Virus record (IMG/VR): IMGVR_UViG_3300035459_000097
Location: 1 to 24,870 of that record
Source of the DNA: a virus
DNA: 24,870 nt
Reading direction: 5' to 3' (one strand)
In this document: positions 1-24,756 of the stretch, piece by piece
Layout of the letters: each line of letters starts with the position of its first letter
How positions within the stretch are numbered: position 1 is the stretch's first letter
Translations under genes and position numbers: made by a program
Notes under the pieces: model-generated
Database searches by the model: none
Seen by the model: the letters and a program-made list of their open reading frames with translations, nothing else
What the model was told of the DNA's origin: nothing

Positions 1-233
1 AGCACGATTTCCTGGTCCCAAGCGAGGAAGATCCATTTCGTGGCGGGCAGGTTGTTGGTGGCCCGGCGGTGCGCGGCGTACCAGTTGTGCTGCGGCCAAT
101 CCTCCGCCTCGGCGAAGATGTGCAGGAGCATGTAGTCTGACGTCGGGAAGGCGTCGAGGTTGAACTCGACCGCGCCTCCGACGGTGAGCGCGCCGCCCTG
201 CGCTGGCGCTGGAACGAGACCTTTCTCGGTCAT
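1..233 (-). CDS. CotH-kinase-like protein, N-terminal part, cut by window edge
   Basis: The gene reads from an ATG at 233 leftward off the window, giving 77 codons. AAAAGGGG lies seven bases before the ATG and supports this start. After about 25 unremarkable residues comes DYMLLHIFAEAEDWPQHNWY and, about 20 residues later, WIFLAWDQE. From memory, this order matches the catalytic half of CotH-type atypical kinases, where a DYMLLN...DWPxNNW loop is followed by a metal-binding WDxE. CotH proteins phosphorylate other proteins and were described in spore coats. Here the motif begins near residue 32, so the usual N-terminal lobe seems short or missing. It is the eighth gene of the leftward operon, 23 bp after the zinc-ribbon gene. 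The family call is moderate; the phage role is unknown. Confidence 0.5.
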   Translation of the reverse strand, partial: MTEKGLVPAPAQGGALTVGGAVEFNLDAFPTSDYMLLHIFAEAEDWPQHNWYAAHRRATNNLPATKWIFLAWDQEIV

Positions 234-256
234 GGGGTATCCCCTTTTCTCTCGGC

Positions 257-3374: not shown

Positions 3375-4163
3375 ATGAACTGCTCTCGATGTGGGGCGAT
3401 CCTGGCGGTTGATGCCGCCTTCTGTGCGCGATGCGGGCAGCCGGTCGCTGGGCCACCACAACCGCCTCTGGTGCCAGTCAAGAAGTCTGCCTTCACCAAC
3501 GACACGGCGTTGGGGCTGGGGCTCATCGTCGCGATCGTCGTGGTACTCGCCCTCGGCGCCGTACTGATCACGGGCGCCATCAAGGGCGGGTCAGGGGTCG
3601 CAGCGGCATCGGCGACAGCTACGGCCACCCCTATGGCCACTTCCACGGCGAGCCCGAGCCCGACGCCTACGGCCACGCCGGAACCCACCCCGTCACCGAC
3701 GGCCACGCCGACTCCGGCTCCCACGGGTCCAAAAACATTCCCGGTCGGCACTCCGGTCTACCTGACAACGGACGACGGAGTCACGCCCTGGGGAACCGTC
3801 ACGGTCTCCGACGTCAAGACAGCGGCGTATTACAAGGGCTCCTATGGCTACCAGGAGAAGCCCGAGGTAGCAGGCAATGTGTTCATCTCGGCCAAGGTGA
3901 CCTACGAGGCTGCGGCCGATGGGATCACCTACAACCCCTACGACTGGGAGGTCTTCTGCGATGGGATGGCGGTCGGATCCAGCAGCTACGCCCTCTATGG
4001 ACCTCAGCCGGCGCTCCACTCCGGAACACTGCCGAGTGGTCGGAAGGCCTCCGGGTACGTGGTCTATGAAGTCCCGCCCAAAGGTGAGGTCCGAATGTCC
4101 TACGGGGCGAGCGCGATCGGCGGGAGGGGCCCGGTCTTCGAGGTGATCATCCGCGCGGCCTGA
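3375..4163 (+). CDS. Zinc-ribbon membrane protein with DUF4352-like extracellular domain (262 aa)
   Basis: The order is an N-terminal zinc ribbon (C3, C6, C17, C20), one transmembrane helix (about 45-68), a Thr/Pro/Ser-rich linker (about 76-120) and a beta-rich domain (122-262) resembling DUF4352. The zinc ribbon should be cytoplasmic and the last domain outside. The ATG at 3375 has AAAGGG eight bases upstream. The gene has its own orientation, converging on the baseplate gene with 37 bp between stops, and is not part of the late operon. Such isolated genes in phages are often morons expressed in the lysogen, and DUF4352-type proteins are known as surface lipoproteins or membrane proteins. 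A role in superinfection exclusion or surface change is inference. Confidence 0.75.
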   Translation: MNCSRCGAILAVDAAFCARCGQPVAGPPQPPLVPVKKSAFTNDTALGLGLIVAIVVVLALGAVLITGAIKGGSGVAAASATATATPMATSTASPSPTPTATPEPTPSPTATPTPAPTGPKTFPVGTPVYLTTDDGVTPWGTVTVSDVKTAAYYKGSYGYQEKPEVAGNVFISAKVTYEAAADGITYNPYDWEVFCDGMAVGSSSYALYGPQPALHSGTLPSGRKASGYVVYEVPPKGEVRMSYGASAIGGRGPVFEVIIRAA

Positions 4164-15609: not shown

Positions 15610-17532
15610 CTATTCCCTTCCTCTCGCCGCGAGCTTCGCGGTGCTCTCGTCCAGGCCGATGTCCCGGAAGGACTCGGTCAGGCTCTTGTTGAAGTCTTCC
15701 GGCCCGGGTGTCCCGGCTGCGCCGAGACCGCGGACCTGGCCGGAGCCGGTGACTTTGGCGAGGTAGGCAACCTCGGCCGCGACGGCTTCCTTGACGGCGG
15801 CCTTGAGGGCCTCCGCGTCGAGCGCTCCGTCCTTGAGGGCGGGGTTCTTGCCGAGCGCCTCGGCCAGCCTCGTCCGGGTGATGTCCGGGATCTGAGCCGT
15901 TGCGAGCTCCGCGGCGACGACGTCGCGGGCCTCGCGCAGGATCAGAGCCTCTTTGGCTCGGGCGGCCTCGGCCAGGGCGGTGTCCCGCGCTGTCTGGGCC
16001 TCCGTGAGCTGCCTCTGGGCTTCGACCAGATCCATGCTCGGGACCTCCGTGATGGGGTTGCGGCGGGGTGCCGCGCCTGTAGGCTCGTTCCGATGCCGGA
16101 ACGACTCGAACAGCGGGAGAACCTGCCCGCCTGCTCCAGGGACCGTGATGAAGTCGGCGCTCCGTAGCGGGTCGGGCAGGAGCTTCTCGATGATCGGCCC
16201 TCGCTTTCCCTCAGCCTCGCCGGTCTTGCCGAGGCCCTTGGTCCGGATCGACACCCCGATGAAGGGGGCCATTTCGTTGAGGGCCTCCCGGTAGGGGGCC
16301 AGCACTTGAGCCGGCGCGTACAGCCCTGGGCCCTTCGGTCCCTTGGCGTCGTACCGCGCATCAGCTGCGAGGACGGCGGCCAGGTCCCGGAGGGAACGCT
16401 CCGGGCGATCGGCCTCCTCGGCGTAGCCCGGGTGGTCCCAGAACATGTGGGTTCCAGCTGCGAAGATCGCGGGCCCGTCCCGCTCGAGGAGCTGCGGAGA
16501 GTAGTAACCCGAAGATCCCCAGCCGGGAGCGATGAGCTTGACGTCGATCATGCCGTTGGAGCGAACGGCGGCCTCTTCGATCGGGATGACGTTGCCCTCG
16601 ATCTCCCACTCGCCGGCCGACTCCCCGATCACCTCGGGCATGTCGGCCGCGTCCTTGTCCGGGTTGGCAGCCTTCCAGGCCTTGCGGACCTTGGCCTTGA
16701 CTGCCGGCAGATCGGCGGTGGGAATGTCCACCTTCTGGCCCCGGAACCCCTTGCCGAGAGCGGCAATGGCGGCTCCGACGATGCCCGGATCCGGGTCTCC
16801 GCCGGGGGTCTTGACGAGGCGGAGCTTCCAAGTCGAGGGCTTCGCAGGGTCAGGAACATAGGCGAAGTCGCCTGCGGCGAACCCATCTCCGTCCTTCACT
16901 GCCTCGGTGGTGACGGTCGTGGAGCTGTAGGAGGTAGTGGTCGAATGAGGCTCCTCGTTGTCCTCCGGGCCGCCGATCTCTCCGATCTCCGCTGTGACCC
17001 AGGTCAGGACCAGGGGCACGACCGCCATGAGCCCCTCGTAGGCCTTCTGGAGCATGGCCACCTGGTCCGGCTCGTCTGATTCGTCGGAGATCAGGTAGAG
17101 GAGGGACTGCGCCGCATACTCCATCGAGGTGATGACCCCGATCCCCCGGGCGGCGTCGTTCGCCTCTCCGGAGTAGGCCTCCATCATCCGGAGGGCTTCC
17201 GTCGTCGGCTCCTCTCCGGAGGCCAGGGTCTTGAGGACTTGCTCGAGAGCAGCGGCGGCCGCGCGGATCTGCTTCTCGTTGGCGGCAGAGAGGACCCGGC
17301 CGGCCTCGTTGAGCTGATGGACTGCCCGGCTGGCCTCGTTCATCATGCCGGCCATCTTCGTGGCGGAGGCGGCGGCCTTCTCCCGGGCCATGCCCCGGCT
17401 GAGTGCCTTGTTGGCCATCTTGACCCAGGCCGCCCGGGCTGTGTCGGAGCCTTTGGGCAGGGCCTCGGTGGCGTCATCTGCGGTGAAGGCGGCCTCGCTG
17501 ACCGTCGCGGCTTCCCGGATGTGAATGAGCAT
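15610..17532 (-). CDS. Capsid maturation protease fused to scaffold (640 aa)
   Basis: The start is ATG 17532, sharing one base with the MuF stop (TGATG); a longer frame has no support. Residues 20-180 form an Ala-rich helical domain (ALPKGSDTARAAWVKMANKA). Residues 215-300 (GDFAYVPDPAKPSTWKL; KAWKAANPDKDA) are a domain often attached to such proteases. The protease spans about 310-480 and has THMFWDHPG (H362, H367), RPERSLRDLAAVL and FIGVSIRTKG (S428), then DFITVPGAGG. H and S are the likely catalytic residues of the herpes-assemblin/HK97-type fold. Residues 500-640 are a coiled, Ala/Glu-rich scaffold delta-domain. It would shape the prohead, then digest itself and the scaffold. Confidence 0.85.
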   Translation of the reverse strand: MLIHIREAATVSEAAFTADDATEALPKGSDTARAAWVKMANKALSRGMAREKAAASATKMAGMMNEASRAVHQLNEAGRVLSAANEKQIRAAAAALEQVLKTLASGEEPTTEALRMMEAYSGEANDAARGIGVITSMEYAAQSLLYLISDESDEPDQVAMLQKAYEGLMAVVPLVLTWVTAEIGEIGGPEDNEEPHSTTTSYSSTTVTTEAVKDGDGFAAGDFAYVPDPAKPSTWKLRLVKTPGGDPDPGIVGAAIAALGKGFRGQKVDIPTADLPAVKAKVRKAWKAANPDKDAADMPEVIGESAGEWEIEGNVIPIEEAAVRSNGMIDVKLIAPGWGSSGYYSPQLLERDGPAIFAAGTHMFWDHPGYAEEADRPERSLRDLAAVLAADARYDAKGPKGPGLYAPAQVLAPYREALNEMAPFIGVSIRTKGLGKTGEAEGKRGPIIEKLLPDPLRSADFITVPGAGGQVLPLFESFRHRNEPTGAAPRRNPITEVPSMDLVEAQRQLTEAQTARDTALAEAARAKEALILREARDVVAAELATAQIPDITRTRLAEALGKNPALKDGALDAEALKAAVKEAVAAEVAYLAKVTGSGQVRGLGAAGTPGPEDFNKSLTESFRDIGLDESTAKLAARGRE

Positions 17533-20508: not shown

Positions 20509-21789
20509 CTAGTAGGGGCTGATAGAGACCCGCTCGTCGTAGGTGACTTGCGGGGTGGGCTCGACGGTCACTGGCTCGAACGCCATCACGAGGTAGCGCA
20601 GCGAGTCGCAGGCGTCGTCGTTGATCTCGACCGGGCGATCGCGAAGGGAACCATCGCGTTGCTTGGCCCAGACGTAGCCCGGAATCTCGGCCAGAAGCCC
20701 GGTGCAGCGGGGGCTGACGGTCATGCCGGCGGCGATCGCGCGCATCACCGCCTGCAGGCCTGGATCCATGGAGTTGTCCGCTTCGACCACGTTGAGACCG
20801 GCTCGACGGCAGGTGAGGATGTAGGCGGGCTCAGATGGATCCGCGAACCAGGCGAGCACCCCGTAGCGCTCCTGGAGCTCGAGGAGGCGAGGGATGACCT
20901 CGTCGAGGGTTCTGCCTCGTTCGTAGACCTCGTCGAGGATGGCGAGCTTGCCGGATCCGGTCTGACCTCCGACATGGGCGGCGAAGGCGTGGACGAAGCC
21001 CCAGTCGATTGCGCCTGCCACGGCCTTGAACGGACCCTCGGCATCGGCGACCTGGTCGTCGGGCAGGTACCAGATGGCGCCCTCGGCCGTGACCCACTCA
21101 CCCATCGTGTAGCGGCGCTTACGGAAGTCATCGGGCGCTGACGCATGCTCGGCGATGTAGTCCGCCGGCAGCGTCGGGTTGTCGAAGGTCGTGGCGTGGA
21201 GATAGACCCGGCTCGCCGAGGGCGGAGTGAACCGTGTCTTGAGCCAGTGCTTCGGACCGGCGGGGTTGGTGGCAGCGGCGATCTGGTGGTAGGGGATCCC
21301 AGGCCAGGACAGGCGGCCCTTGACCATGTTCCAGTCATCGGCCGTGAGCTCCACCGCCTCGTCGACAAAGGCCCAGCCGAGCTCGACCGAGCCGACCTTC
21401 GAGGCAGTACCGGTCTGCAGGTTGGCATCGAGGCCGAAGAGCCGGATGACCGACCCGTTGGCGAGCTCGTAGCGCCGCAGCGAGTCGTTGCTGCGCACGA
21501 TGGCGCCTGCCGGGACCACGTCCTTGAAGAGAGTGGTCTGGGTCGAGGCCTCGAGGTCCGCGGCGATCTTGCGGAAGATGCCGATCGTGATGCCCGGGTA
21601 GCGACGGGCCAGGTAGTAGCCCTTCTCGCAGCCGATCCGGCTCTTGCCGGCGCGGAAGGCCCCGGAGTAGAGCACCTCGGGCGCCTCGCTGTCGAAGAAG
21701 ACCTGCTGCTGGGGGTTGATGAAACGGGGCCCGAGCTCGGTGCGCAGGGCCTGCAGCTGCGGCCGCGGCATCATCGCCAGGGCGTTCAT
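20509..21789 (-). CDS. terL: Terminase large subunit (426 aa)
   Basis: The ATPase has Walker A GAFRAGKS (43-50), Walker B LGWAFVDEA (D143, E144) and a coupling ATNP (173-176). The nuclease domain has D262 (AIDWGF), acidic residues at 286-290, D317 (WFADPSEP) and D392/D395 (DDACDSLRY), matching the RNase H-like metal site. It pumps DNA into the prohead and cuts the concatemer. Length is normal. ATGA overlaps link it to the small subunit. Whether packaging is by cos or pac cannot be told here. Confidence 0.93.
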   Translation of the reverse strand: MNALAMMPRPQLQALRTELGPRFINPQQQVFFDSEAPEVLYSGAFRAGKSRIGCEKGYYLARRYPGITIGIFRKIAADLEASTQTTLFKDVVPAGAIVRSNDSLRRYELANGSVIRLFGLDANLQTGTASKVGSVELGWAFVDEAVELTADDWNMVKGRLSWPGIPYHQIAAATNPAGPKHWLKTRFTPPSASRVYLHATTFDNPTLPADYIAEHASAPDDFRKRRYTMGEWVTAEGAIWYLPDDQVADAEGPFKAVAGAIDWGFVHAFAAHVGGQTGSGKLAILDEVYERGRTLDEVIPRLLELQERYGVLAWFADPSEPAYILTCRRAGLNVVEADNSMDPGLQAVMRAIAAGMTVSPRCTGLLAEIPGYVWAKQRDGSLRDRPVEINDDACDSLRYLVMAFEPVTVEPTPQVTYDERVSISPY

Positions 21790-22403
21790 GCCTGGTCCTC
21801 GGCCGGCTCTGACTGCTGGTCCAGGGCAGCATCGATGGCGCGCCGGAGCGCCGCTCGCTCGTGGTCGTTGAGCCCCTCGAGGACCTGGGAGGTGGCGATC
21901 GGGCCGCCGTTGGCGCCGGTCAGCTCCAGGCGGGCGTTCTCGCGGTAGATCGAGGGCCGGTGGGCCTTGAGCAGGAAGATGAGCAGCACGTCGCTGTACT
22001 CGCGGACCTGGCCGACCTTGTGGCCGTTCTGATAGATCGGCTTCTGGGTGCCGGTGTAGGCGCGCCGGCGGGCCTCAGCCTCGAGCAACTCGGTCGCGCC
22101 CTCCTCCGCCTCGGCCCATGCGGCGGCGAACTTCGGGTTGCTGGCCCGGACCTTGTAGGCCTGCTGACGACTGATGCGAGCCGCCCGGCAGGCCGTGAGC
22201 ACGATGCCGGTCTCGGCGAAGGCCTTGAGAAAGGCCGGCTTCCAGTTGCGAAGAGGTTTTCGCGCGGAAACGGAAGAGCCGGGGCCGGCTGAGCCGGTCC
22301 CGGCGCCAGTGGCGGCCACGGGTTCAGATGGGGGCTCTACTGGCCTACCCGAAGGAGGCGAGGTGGCCCCTGGCGAACGCACACGAGTGCCGGCCGTCGG
22401 CAT
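21786..22403 (-). CDS. terS: Terminase small subunit (205 aa)
   Basis: The first about 50 residues are Pro/Gly/Ser-rich and likely disordered. Then comes a HTH (GIVLTACRAARISRQQAYKV, about 67-90) followed by helices with FAAAWAEAEEGATELLEAEA and RRRAYTGTQKPIYQNGHKVG. Next is YSDVLLIFLLKAHRPSIYRE, a classic sequence of this terminase small subunit family. It recognises the packaging start and activates the large subunit. It lies directly upstream of terL (ATGA overlap) and five bases after the holin-like gene. Confidence 0.85.
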   Translation of the reverse strand: MPTAGTRVRSPGATSPPSGRPVEPPSEPVAATGAGTGSAGPGSSVSARKPLRNWKPAFLKAFAETGIVLTACRAARISRQQAYKVRASNPKFAAAWAEAEEGATELLEAEARRRAYTGTQKPIYQNGHKVGQVREYSDVLLIFLLKAHRPSIYRENARLELTGANGGPIATSQVLEGLNDHERAALRRAIDAALDQQSEPAEDQA

Positions 22404-22408
22404 GCTGA

Positions 22409-22717
22409 CTAGGCCGCCTTCACGATCGAGGTGGCCCGCTCGATCCTCTGGGCCAGGTTGCTGAAGATCTGACTCCAGAACATCGCGTAGGCCGCCTGGC
22501 CGATGGCCGCGCCGAGGGCGATGAGTCCCACGACGTTGTCGAGGGTGAAGTTCAACCCTGAGGTCAAGACGCCGAGGATGCCCACCACGAAGTAGCAGCC
22601 CACGGCGATGACGCTGTTGTAGGTCGGGCTCCAGCCTTCCTGGCGGATGACCGCGATGAGGAGCGGCAGGATTGCCGCGAAAATGATGTAGCCGGGGTTG
22701 GACAGGATCGGATCCAT
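22409..22717 (-). CDS. Holin-like membrane protein (102 aa)
   Basis: There are three hydrophobic segments (about 8-24, 33-51 and 63-81) and a charged C-terminal tail (SNLAQRIERATSIVKAA), the layout of class I holins. It has no signal peptide. GGAGGAA lies a few bases before the ATG. It follows the papain-like gene and the coiled-coil/TM gene, so the three together could make a lysis cassette placed before the terminase. Function is inferred from topology and context only. Confidence 0.65.
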   Translation of the reverse strand: MDPILSNPGYIIFAAILPLLIAVIRQEGWSPTYNSVIAVGCYFVVGILGVLTSGLNFTLDNVVGLIALGAAIGQAAYAMFWSQIFSNLAQRIERATSIVKAA

Positions 22718-22726
22718 GGTTCCTCC

Positions 22727-23803
22727 CTAGACGTTGAGGTCGGCGCGCACGGCACCGTCGACGGACAGCTGGACGCGGTGGAGCACGTCGCCGCCACCGG
22801 GAGCCGGCGTGAACGAGCTTGCATTCCGAGCCAGCAGGGCGACCAACTGGCCCCCGACCACGATCAGGAAGGCGTCCGTGCCGTCGAGGTTCGTTGGGCC
22901 GATCGGGGAGTTCAACTGGTAGCGGTTGATGACCGGATAGGATCCGGCCGGCACGGGCACGAGAACATTCGTGATGACGTTCTCTGCCCGGATCGCAGGG
23001 TCATTCGGGACGACGATGGTGCCGATGGGCGTGGGGACGGTGCCGTTCATGTTTCCTCCGGAGAAGGGCAGATCGCGGCCAGTCAGATCCTTGAAGGCTG
23101 CGGCAAGTCCGGCCAGGTCCATGCCCGCCAAGAACCCCTTGGAGCCCAGGTGCTCGGGCAGGATCACTCCCCAGGTGCCGTTGACCTCATGGGCCCAGAA
23201 CTCCTGGGTGAAGCCGTTCTCGCGGGTCCACGTCTCGAACCGGACGTCATCCGCGGCGGTGTCGCGGTGGCCGGCGGACATGACGGAGTGGTAGCCCTCG
23301 ACCTCGGAACTAGGGTGATAGCCCCAGTCCCGGCCGGCGTCGTAGTCGTCGAAGCAGGACTTCCGGACCCGGATTGAGGTCCACTCGAAGCCGAGGATCG
23401 AGATCGCGGCATCGTGCTTGCCGAGCGCGATCGTTCCGAAGGCCACGATGTCACCGCGCTTCTGGAGGTATTCCAGCAGCGTCTGGATGTCCATGCCGTT
23501 GTCTTCAGCTGGGTAGTTCGGGTTCTGAGTCTTGTAGATGGCGACGATCTCGTCATCGGTCAGGATGATTTCCTTGCCGCCCAGAATGGCGGACACGAGG
23601 GCCTTGACAGCTCCCCAGGTCGCGACGACGCAGGTTCCGTGCTGGTTGTTGAGCCACCACGGCCAGGTCTTGCGGTAGGAGAGATAGTCCACTGGCGGAG
23701 TGGCGGGCAGGACCTCCGGGCGGAAGAAGTCGGAGAGGACCAGGGCCGGTTTGTTGACGGCCGGGCGACATCCGAGCTTGGGGCGGAACTGTTCGCTGGT
23801 CAT
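22727..23803 (-). CDS. Papain-like (C1-like) cysteine peptidase-fold protein with beta-rich C-terminal domain (358 aa)
   Basis: Residues about 35-215 have the C1 order. Q54 and C58 lie in NNQHGTCVVATWGAV. LTDDEIVAIYKTQNPNY and MDIQTLLEYLQKRGDIVAFG (104-123) follow. H172 is in GYHSVMSAGH, and then comes TWTRENGF (191-198), similar to the Asn/Trp-containing end of papain-like enzymes. No signal peptide is present. Residues about 250-358 are beta-looking, rich in Val, Pro and Asn, and may bind a surface or form part of a virion fibre. Lying next to a holin-like gene, it could be an unusual endolysin; related papain-like phage proteins are also thought to be structural. The family call is moderate, the activity inferred. 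Confidence 0.6.
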   Translation of the reverse strand: MTSEQFRPKLGCRPAVNKPALVLSDFFRPEVLPATPPVDYLSYRKTWPWWLNNQHGTCVVATWGAVKALVSAILGGKEIILTDDEIVAIYKTQNPNYPAEDNGMDIQTLLEYLQKRGDIVAFGTIALGKHDAAISILGFEWTSIRVRKSCFDDYDAGRDWGYHPSSEVEGYHSVMSAGHRDTAADDVRFETWTRENGFTQEFWAHEVNGTWGVILPEHLGSKGFLAGMDLAGLAAAFKDLTGRDLPFSGGNMNGTVPTPIGTIVVPNDPAIRAENVITNVLVPVPAGSYPVINRYQLNSPIGPTNLDGTDAFLIVVGGQLVALLARNASSFTPAPGGGDVLHRVQLSVDGAVRADLNV

Positions 23804-23997
23804 GGGAGCCTCGTTGCTTTCCCGGAGATCTGGACGGCGTCGGCGTAGGACTCGTCCCAGTCCACGTGCAGCCCATTGCCGCTCTCGGCCGGTCGGAAGG
23901 GCGCATTGATGATCCGCGCGAGGTGCCGGCGGTAGGCGGCCCGCGCTCGCCGGCGCTCTTGCCAGTCCCGGACGGCTCGGAGCAGAAGGGTGATCAT
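23800..23997 (-). CDS. Small basic protein (65 aa)
   Basis: The N-terminal 30 residues form a strongly basic amphipathic helix (MITLLLRAVRDWQERRRARA), and the rest is mixed (ESGNGLHVDWDESYADAVQI). Its ATG shares one base with the preceding TAA (TAATG), and its TGA overlaps the next ATG, giving strong evidence for coupling. No family is recognised. It may be a small lysis or assembly accessory. Confidence 0.55.
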   Translation of the reverse strand: MITLLLRAVRDWQERRRARAAYRRHLARIINAPFRPAESGNGLHVDWDESYADAVQISGKATRLP

Positions 23998-24323
23998 TAC
24001 AACCTCCCGAGCCAGTGCAGCAGGCTCGCGCTGTTGCTGAGCAGGACCACGATCAGCGAGGCGAACGCCACGACGGCGACTCCCCAGCGCAGGATCCGGA
24101 GAGCCGCTCGCATCTCAACCCGAAGGTCGCGCTGGTCATCACAAACGCCCTTGATGCGCCTGTCCTGGTCCCCGTCACGGGTCTCCAGGTCGGTCAGCCG
24201 GCGAATGATGCCCGCCTCCCTGAGCTCCTTGAGATCCGAGGCCATGGCTCCGAGCTGCTCGAGCACTTGGTCGAGCTTTACCTCGACGGCCACGAGGCGG
24301 CCTCCTACATCTGCGGGGGTCAT
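23997..24323 (-). CDS. Coiled-coil protein with C-terminal membrane anchor, XhlA-like (108 aa)
   Basis: The start is ATG 24323, which overlaps the TGA of a possible upstream 55-aa gene; a 28-residue longer frame is less likely. The first about 75 residues form a coiled coil (KLDQVLEQLGAMASDLKELR and on). One hydrophobic span follows (about 80-98, WGVAVVAFASLIVVLL). This layout matches XhlA-type lysis accessory proteins and other anchored phage proteins. Position beside the holin-like gene supports a membrane/lysis role. It is not a proven match. Confidence 0.6.
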   Translation of the reverse strand: MTPADVGGRLVAVEVKLDQVLEQLGAMASDLKELREAGIIRRLTDLETRDGDQDRRIKGVCDDQRDLRVEMRAALRILRWGVAVVAFASLIVVLLSNSASLLHWLGRL

Positions 24324-24487
24324 CGGGGATAGGCCAGATAGACCGTCTGGGCGCCGCACTTCACCACGGCGCCCAGCGGCTGCTCGGAGGGAGGAGAAGA
24401 GGGGCAAAGAGAACGCCCGTCCTTCGCGCTCACAGCCTGGCTCGCCCGATCAGGGGTGCACGCCTTGTGACGGAAGAACGGGCTCAC
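24320..24487 (-). CDS. Possible small Cys-containing protein (55 aa)
   Basis: This frame begins GTG at 24487 and ends in a TGA overlapping the next ATG. It encodes 55 residues with three Cys (near 9, 28 and 44) and ends VVKCGAQTVYLAYPR. The end coupling is good, but the start has no clear Shine-Dalgarno, and no family is recognised. It could be a real small gene filling the space between the HTH and coiled-coil genes, or a chance frame. Confidence 0.35.
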   Translation of the reverse strand: MSPFFRHKACTPDRASQAVSAKDGRSLCPSSPPSEQPLGAVVKCGAQTVYLAYPR

Positions 24488-24507: not shown

Positions 24508-24756
24508 TCAGCCCCCGACAGCTACCCCCGACGTTGCACTATCGGCCGACGGGGTGTACGGAATAACTAGCCAGCCGAGCAGCATCGCGGCTTCGAGACG
24601 GCTGCCGGCGCCGAGTTTGACGTAGAGCGAAGCGACGTGACCTCGGACCGTATGGCGGCTGACGCCAAGCGATGCCGCTGCCTCCTTGTCGCAGCCGTAG
24701 CGGCAGACCGCCGCGAAGGCCTCGAGCTCGCGGGAGGTCGGCACCGGGTTCCTCAT
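24508..24756 (-). CDS. Stand-alone LuxR/GerE-type HTH protein (82 aa)
   Basis: Residues about 6-65 match the C-terminal DNA-binding domain of LuxR/FixJ regulators: SRELEAFAAVCRYGCDKEAA, then LGVSRHTVRGHVASLYVKLG, then SRLEAAMLLGWL. The usual pattern is 'LT.RE...L.....G..nkeIA..L..S..TV..H...i..KLg...R..A'. No receiver or sensor domain is present, so it resembles small phage regulators made only of the HTH. It lies upstream of the late genes in the same direction and may regulate them. The ATG overlaps the stop of the upstream partial gene. Confidence 0.8.
   Translation of the reverse strand: MRNPVPTSRELEAFAAVCRYGCDKEAAASLGVSRHTVRGHVASLYVKLGAGSRLEAAMLLGWLVIPYTPSADSATSGVAVGG

Follow-up and report, generated by a model that had tools for sequence, protein, structure and literature searches.

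A papain-fold cysteine peptidase in a viral lysis-type operon as a candidate lysis-stage envelope protease

The papain relatives that usually cut cell walls are the NlpC/P60 and CHAP families. Phage lysins that are cysteine peptidases are already known, and C1A genes have been annotated in phages. Endolysins of mycobacteriophages contain a papain-superfamily N5 domain (PMC3314691), and PeiW and PeiP are phage pseudomurein endoisopeptidases that use Cys-His-Asp (PMC4592898). The N5 and Pei lysins resemble P0001, the protein described here, in being cysteine-peptidase phage proteins, but they belong to other families and have known or presumed wall substrates. The cysteine protease of phage ctsHD2 (MW202816, UOF82311.1) is a 27% identical homologue of P0001 with the same Cys and His, which differs in having no C-terminal extension and in being encoded directly next to a conventional amidase. 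Thermoanaerobacterium phage THSA-485A, whose host has been cultured, also encodes a C1-type peptidase in its late region, directly after a GH25 lysin. However, this C1A papain, which was found via a paralogue in contig L020, belongs to a separate branch and is not a direct homologue, as assessed by tblastn with P0001.

The window analyzed here is a virus fragment of 24,870 bases (IMG/VR record IMGVR_UViG_3300035459_000097). Positions 22409-23803 span two genes on the minus strand, encoding the holin-like P0002 and the papain-like P0001, with the following features in and around them.

15610-17532, minus strand: head maturation protease candidate (phrog_15531, E = 2.5e-22)
20509-21789, minus strand: terminase large subunit, TerL (phrog_2, E = 1.1e-32; Pfam Terminase_3)
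21786-22403, minus strand: terminase small subunit, TerS (phrog_4044, E = 2.8e-37)
22409-22717, minus strand: P0002, holin-like membrane protein of 102 aa with three hydrophobic segments (hydropathy; weak PHROG holin match, E = 0.08)
22727-23803, minus strand: P0001, predicted papain-fold (C1-like) cysteine peptidase of 358 aa (phrog_19005, AlphaFold, Foldseek, alignment, codon-position differences)
P0001 residues about 10-245, minus strand: putative catalytic domain (N52, C58, H172)
P0001 residues 249-358, minus strand: C-terminal part, variable and unmatched
23800-23997, minus strand: small ORF of 65 aa, overlapping the protease start by 4 bases (ORF list; searched against Pfam and PHROG)
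23997-24407, minus strand: XhlA-like protein of 136 aa with a C-terminal TM segment (Pfam XhlA, E = 0.017, below the gathering score; hydropathy)
24508-24756, minus strand: LuxR-type helix-turn-helix protein at the operon head (in L019, a homologue with 44% identity lies close to the protease gene)

The late operon runs from the LuxR-type gene through those for the XhlA-like protein, the 65-aa ORF, P0001, P0002, TerS, TerL, a portal, a Mu-F-like protein, the head protease, and tail proteins. The junctions at P0001 are tight, with the 4-base overlap before it and a gap of 9 bases to P0002 after it. The earlier note on this DNA had pointed to a holin-like gene adjoining the papain-like one, and P0002, which is assigned as a holin from its size and TM segments, indeed occupies that place in a tight, lysis-type operon. 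The LuxR-type protein, whose homologues in L019 and L024 (40-44% identity) are encoded close to the protease gene, is a candidate late-gene regulator.

Sequence comparison indicates that P0001 is a genuine coding gene, because its differences from the relative in L018 are concentrated at third codon positions (37/31/90) and because 15 relatives are found in viral contigs, with identities of 63-66% for the closest and down to 34% for the most distant. P0001 matches the profile of PHROG 19005 (E = 3e-10), as do 32 of 33 relatives, and shows no match in Pfam or NCBIfam. There was no match of P0001 over the gathering score of Pfam PF00112 (Peptidase C1), for which the best E value (0.0054) was obtained with one of 11 relatives. 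What appears to be new is a family without assigned function that fails the sequence features defining family C1. The family profile is rare in cellular genomes: it was found in 3/400 of a Chloroflexota sample, one of which is an already known locus, and in 3/296 genomes of the phylum of Streptomyces, where one is an already known locus and one is weak. One locus of the family (L055) is in Streptomyces hygroscopicus. Another family member (L072, in G386) was flagged by the search for a single in-frame TAG, yet the ORF listed for it (1438-2154) reads through 238 aa without a stop.

An AlphaFold model of P0001, built on 33 aligned relatives, has residues 10-245 mostly at pLDDT >90. Foldseek searches with this model retrieved C1 peptidases, with xylellain (3ois) as the best PDB match (E = 1.4e-6), followed by falcipains and cathepsins. 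Among BFVD entries, the hits were phage proteins annotated as Peptidase_C1 and a single C1-fold protein, also from a phage, that carries the name 'Peptidoglycan binding-like'. When a 257-aa relative lacking the C-terminal part was modelled as well, the result matched xylellain 3ois with an E value of 1.3e-8 and a TM score of 0.67. These predictions confirm, for residues 10-245, the papain-type (C1) cysteine peptidase fold that had been proposed from the letters alone. An NlpC/P60 or CHAP identity was ruled out by Pfam profile and fold searches.

As for the putative active site, C58, H172, N52, and W192 are invariant in all 33 aligned sequences, in keeping with the earlier choice of C58 and H172 as the catalytic pair. 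Q54, which had been named alongside them, does not hold up, being present in only 11/33 sequences and not at papain oxyanion spacing. N52 precedes C58 by six residues, as in papain, and because it is both invariant and correctly spaced, it is the likely oxyanion residue. The canonical third catalytic Asn is absent from its place, as located by sequence: position 190 is Ile in 27 sequences, Glu in 3, and Val in 3, followed by a conserved Thr/Ser191 and Trp192, so that N-S-W reads (I/E/V)-(T/S)-W. Because of this replacement, P0001 would likely act by a Cys-His dyad or a Thr-assisted triad, and strong proteolysis is not assured. Compared with C1 peptidases (papain, xylellain, cathepsins), P0001 shares the predicted fold, the Cys at the start of the central helix, the His on a strand, the spacing of the oxyanion residue, and the Trp after the third-residue position, but it has Asn rather than Gln at the oxyanion position, I/E/V-T-W rather than N-S-W, and no Pfam C1 match.

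The last 110 residues of P0001 are variable among relatives and poorly modelled (pLDDT <60). The idea that this part is beta-rich and binds the cell wall gained no support, as searches matched it to no other proteins and found no wall-binding domain. We also rejected a C-terminal domain shared with known lysins, because neither the 'AKGL' helical end of some relatives nor the C terminus in the window matched other proteins. In one relative (L019:10790-11107), the C-terminal domain ends in VVDVTGYF and presumably resembles repeats known from proteins that actinobacteria secrete.

L018, L019, and L037, the three closest relatives, all have a gene for a small membrane protein immediately after the protease gene, and these membrane proteins form one family (43-71% identity). 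P0002 is unrelated to this family (E = 4.8), so different holin-like genes fill one site: the place is conserved, but its occupant is not. A small TM gene is found within two genes of 17/37 protease loci versus 52/236 other genes (p = 0.004), a moderate effect obtained with a crude gene caller and with related loci among those counted. Besides the amidase in ctsHD2, genes directly adjoining the family protease encode GH25 enzymes (G011, G015, and G024), a GlyHyd-like (DUF1906) protein (G010), and PHROG endolysins (L021 and L075). By our own estimates of the counts and of the random chance, an endolysin as direct neighbour in 4/20 has a probability of 0.003 if that chance is 0.03. The genome position of the family protease is not fixed. 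Its gene lies among tail genes, between a gp10-like gene and a tail tube gene, in L054, and after a structural gene in L050. In L086 it is flanked by a terminase-like gene and the portal gene, and in several relatives it adjoins tail-fibre genes. Contig L020 carries a second, C1A-like papain gene (952-1893; Peptidase_C1 E = 0.0015, DQGSTPECV motif), which is separated from the downstream family member by one holin-like gene; a 72-aa two-TM protein is thus flanked by two papain-type proteases.

Distant relatives of P0001 occur in one genome of the Chloroflexota sample (G098), which contains two prophage copies of the family protease (E = 1.3e-19 and 1.4e-17). One prophage (L099) encodes a tail fibre, a 75-aa holin-like membrane protein, a 103-aa XhlA-like protein, and the protease; the other copy (L100) adjoins an integrase with host genes beyond. 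No match to MurG was found in G098, whereas even archaeal controls match, and FolC (E = 1e-114) is its only Mur-ligase-type protein, with no MurC-G, absences that are to be read with the possible incompleteness of this genome in mind. Some orders of Dehalococcoidia have S-layers and no peptidoglycan, and SAR202 are among the abundant bacteria that no longer have peptidoglycan and depend on S-layers instead (PMC10284905, PMC11994032). The missing MurC-G fits these published orders, to which we infer that G098 belongs, and by its gene content this host seems to have no peptidoglycan wall. Because G098 has neither MurG nor a Mur ligase, peptidoglycan is an unlikely target in its phages. For three viral contigs whose proteases are 79-89% identical, no wall hydrolase was found among the best 25 of 41 Pfam families.

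The most economical reading is that P0001 leaves the cell interior through a holin and attacks the envelope as a protease at the lysis stage, alone or with a peptidoglycan hydrolase, a candidate role that we hold to be about evenly balanced between right and wrong. It competes with the earlier suggestion of a C1-type endolysin, i.e. an ordinary endolysin of a new catalytic type that cuts peptidoglycan stems or bridges as the only wall hydrolase of the phage. The papain fold, the place in a lysis operon, the precedents of the N5 domain and of the Cys-His-Asp pseudomurein endoisopeptidases, and the 'Peptidoglycan binding-like' phage protein all agree with such an enzyme. So does the search for conventional endolysins: as noticed before, no ordinary endolysin is visible in the window, where GH25, Amidase_2, GlyHyd-like (DUF1906), NlpC/P60, M15, and CHAP gave no match; the same six families are missing from the contigs of the three closest relatives (G001, G002, and G017), and Pfam profiles revealed no wall hydrolase among 43 proteins from these contigs. 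However, all four records are fragments, and the absence is therefore not proven for whole genomes. Moreover, P0001 matches C1 peptidases rather than the usual wall-cutting families, it has no recognizable wall-binding domain, and related genes reside in a host genome without MurC-G. Because many relatives adjoin a conventional endolysin, a role as sole peptidoglycan endolysin is disfavoured in their phages, and we consider the endolysin explanation unlikely for P0001.

Relatives within structural operons (L054 and L050) or beside tail-fibre genes would suit a virion-associated protease, opening the envelope at entry or processing virion proteins, which we regard as improbable since P0001 is encoded between lysis-type membrane genes and the terminase, no tail-attachment domain was found in it, and the window has a separate head maturation protease candidate. 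A role for P0001 itself as head maturation protease was rejected because that other gene (15610-17532, phrog_15531) fits. The variable genome position and C-terminal parts of the family, and its rarity in bacterial genomes, could also reflect an accessory, moron-like protease, secreted or intracellular and unrelated to lysis, with host defence or surface receptors as conceivable targets. As holin, XhlA, and endolysin neighbours recur in several lineages, we find this the hardest explanation to credit.

As a lysis-stage envelope protease, P0001, which has no signal peptide, would be made late in infection and pass the membrane through P0002, with help from the XhlA-like protein. In the host envelope it would then hydrolyse peptide bonds, with C58 serving as the nucleophile, H172 as the base, and N52 forming part of the oxyanion hole. 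The favoured substrate would be an envelope protein (S-layer or surface proteins), ahead of peptidoglycan peptide bridges, because the host whose prophages carry distant relatives lacks peptidoglycan genes. A relative encoded next to an endolysin would be the partner of a glycosidase or amidase in walled hosts. One that lacks such a neighbour would act as the main lysin, and in hosts with a protein coat the protease would be the lysin itself. Extended to the family, this suggests, tentatively and with more doubt than confidence, a class of papain-like lysins that open bacteria by digesting a protein envelope instead of cutting peptidoglycan, serving as the lysin in S-layer hosts without peptidoglycan (Dehalococcoidia-type Chloroflexota) and as a partner protease in walled hosts.

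Enzymes of the P0001 family may thus open host cells by cutting the proteinaceous parts of their envelope, which would provide a possible function for PHROG 19005 and, if true, add a proteolytic kind of lysin to those known. In the literature searched, we found no link of this family to hosts without peptidoglycan and no account of how phages lyse such hosts of the Dehalococcoidia/SAR202 type, for which a cassette of holin and papain-type protease would be a concrete, testable answer.

Three observations concern other genes in the window. The 640-aa protein encoded at 15610-17532 (minus strand) combines a phrog_19463 region with the head maturation protease region and is possibly a protease fused to a scaffold. 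When compared with the loci of relatives, structural genes in the window matched only a tape-measure stretch in L051 and, marginally, one in L064. The same comparison matched, in the related contig L063, a 57% identical homologue of a zinc-ribbon, single-TM, Thr/Pro-rich DUF4352 protein, which is encoded on the opposite strand next to the tail genes (3375-4163, plus strand) and is possibly the product of a lysogenic-conversion gene.
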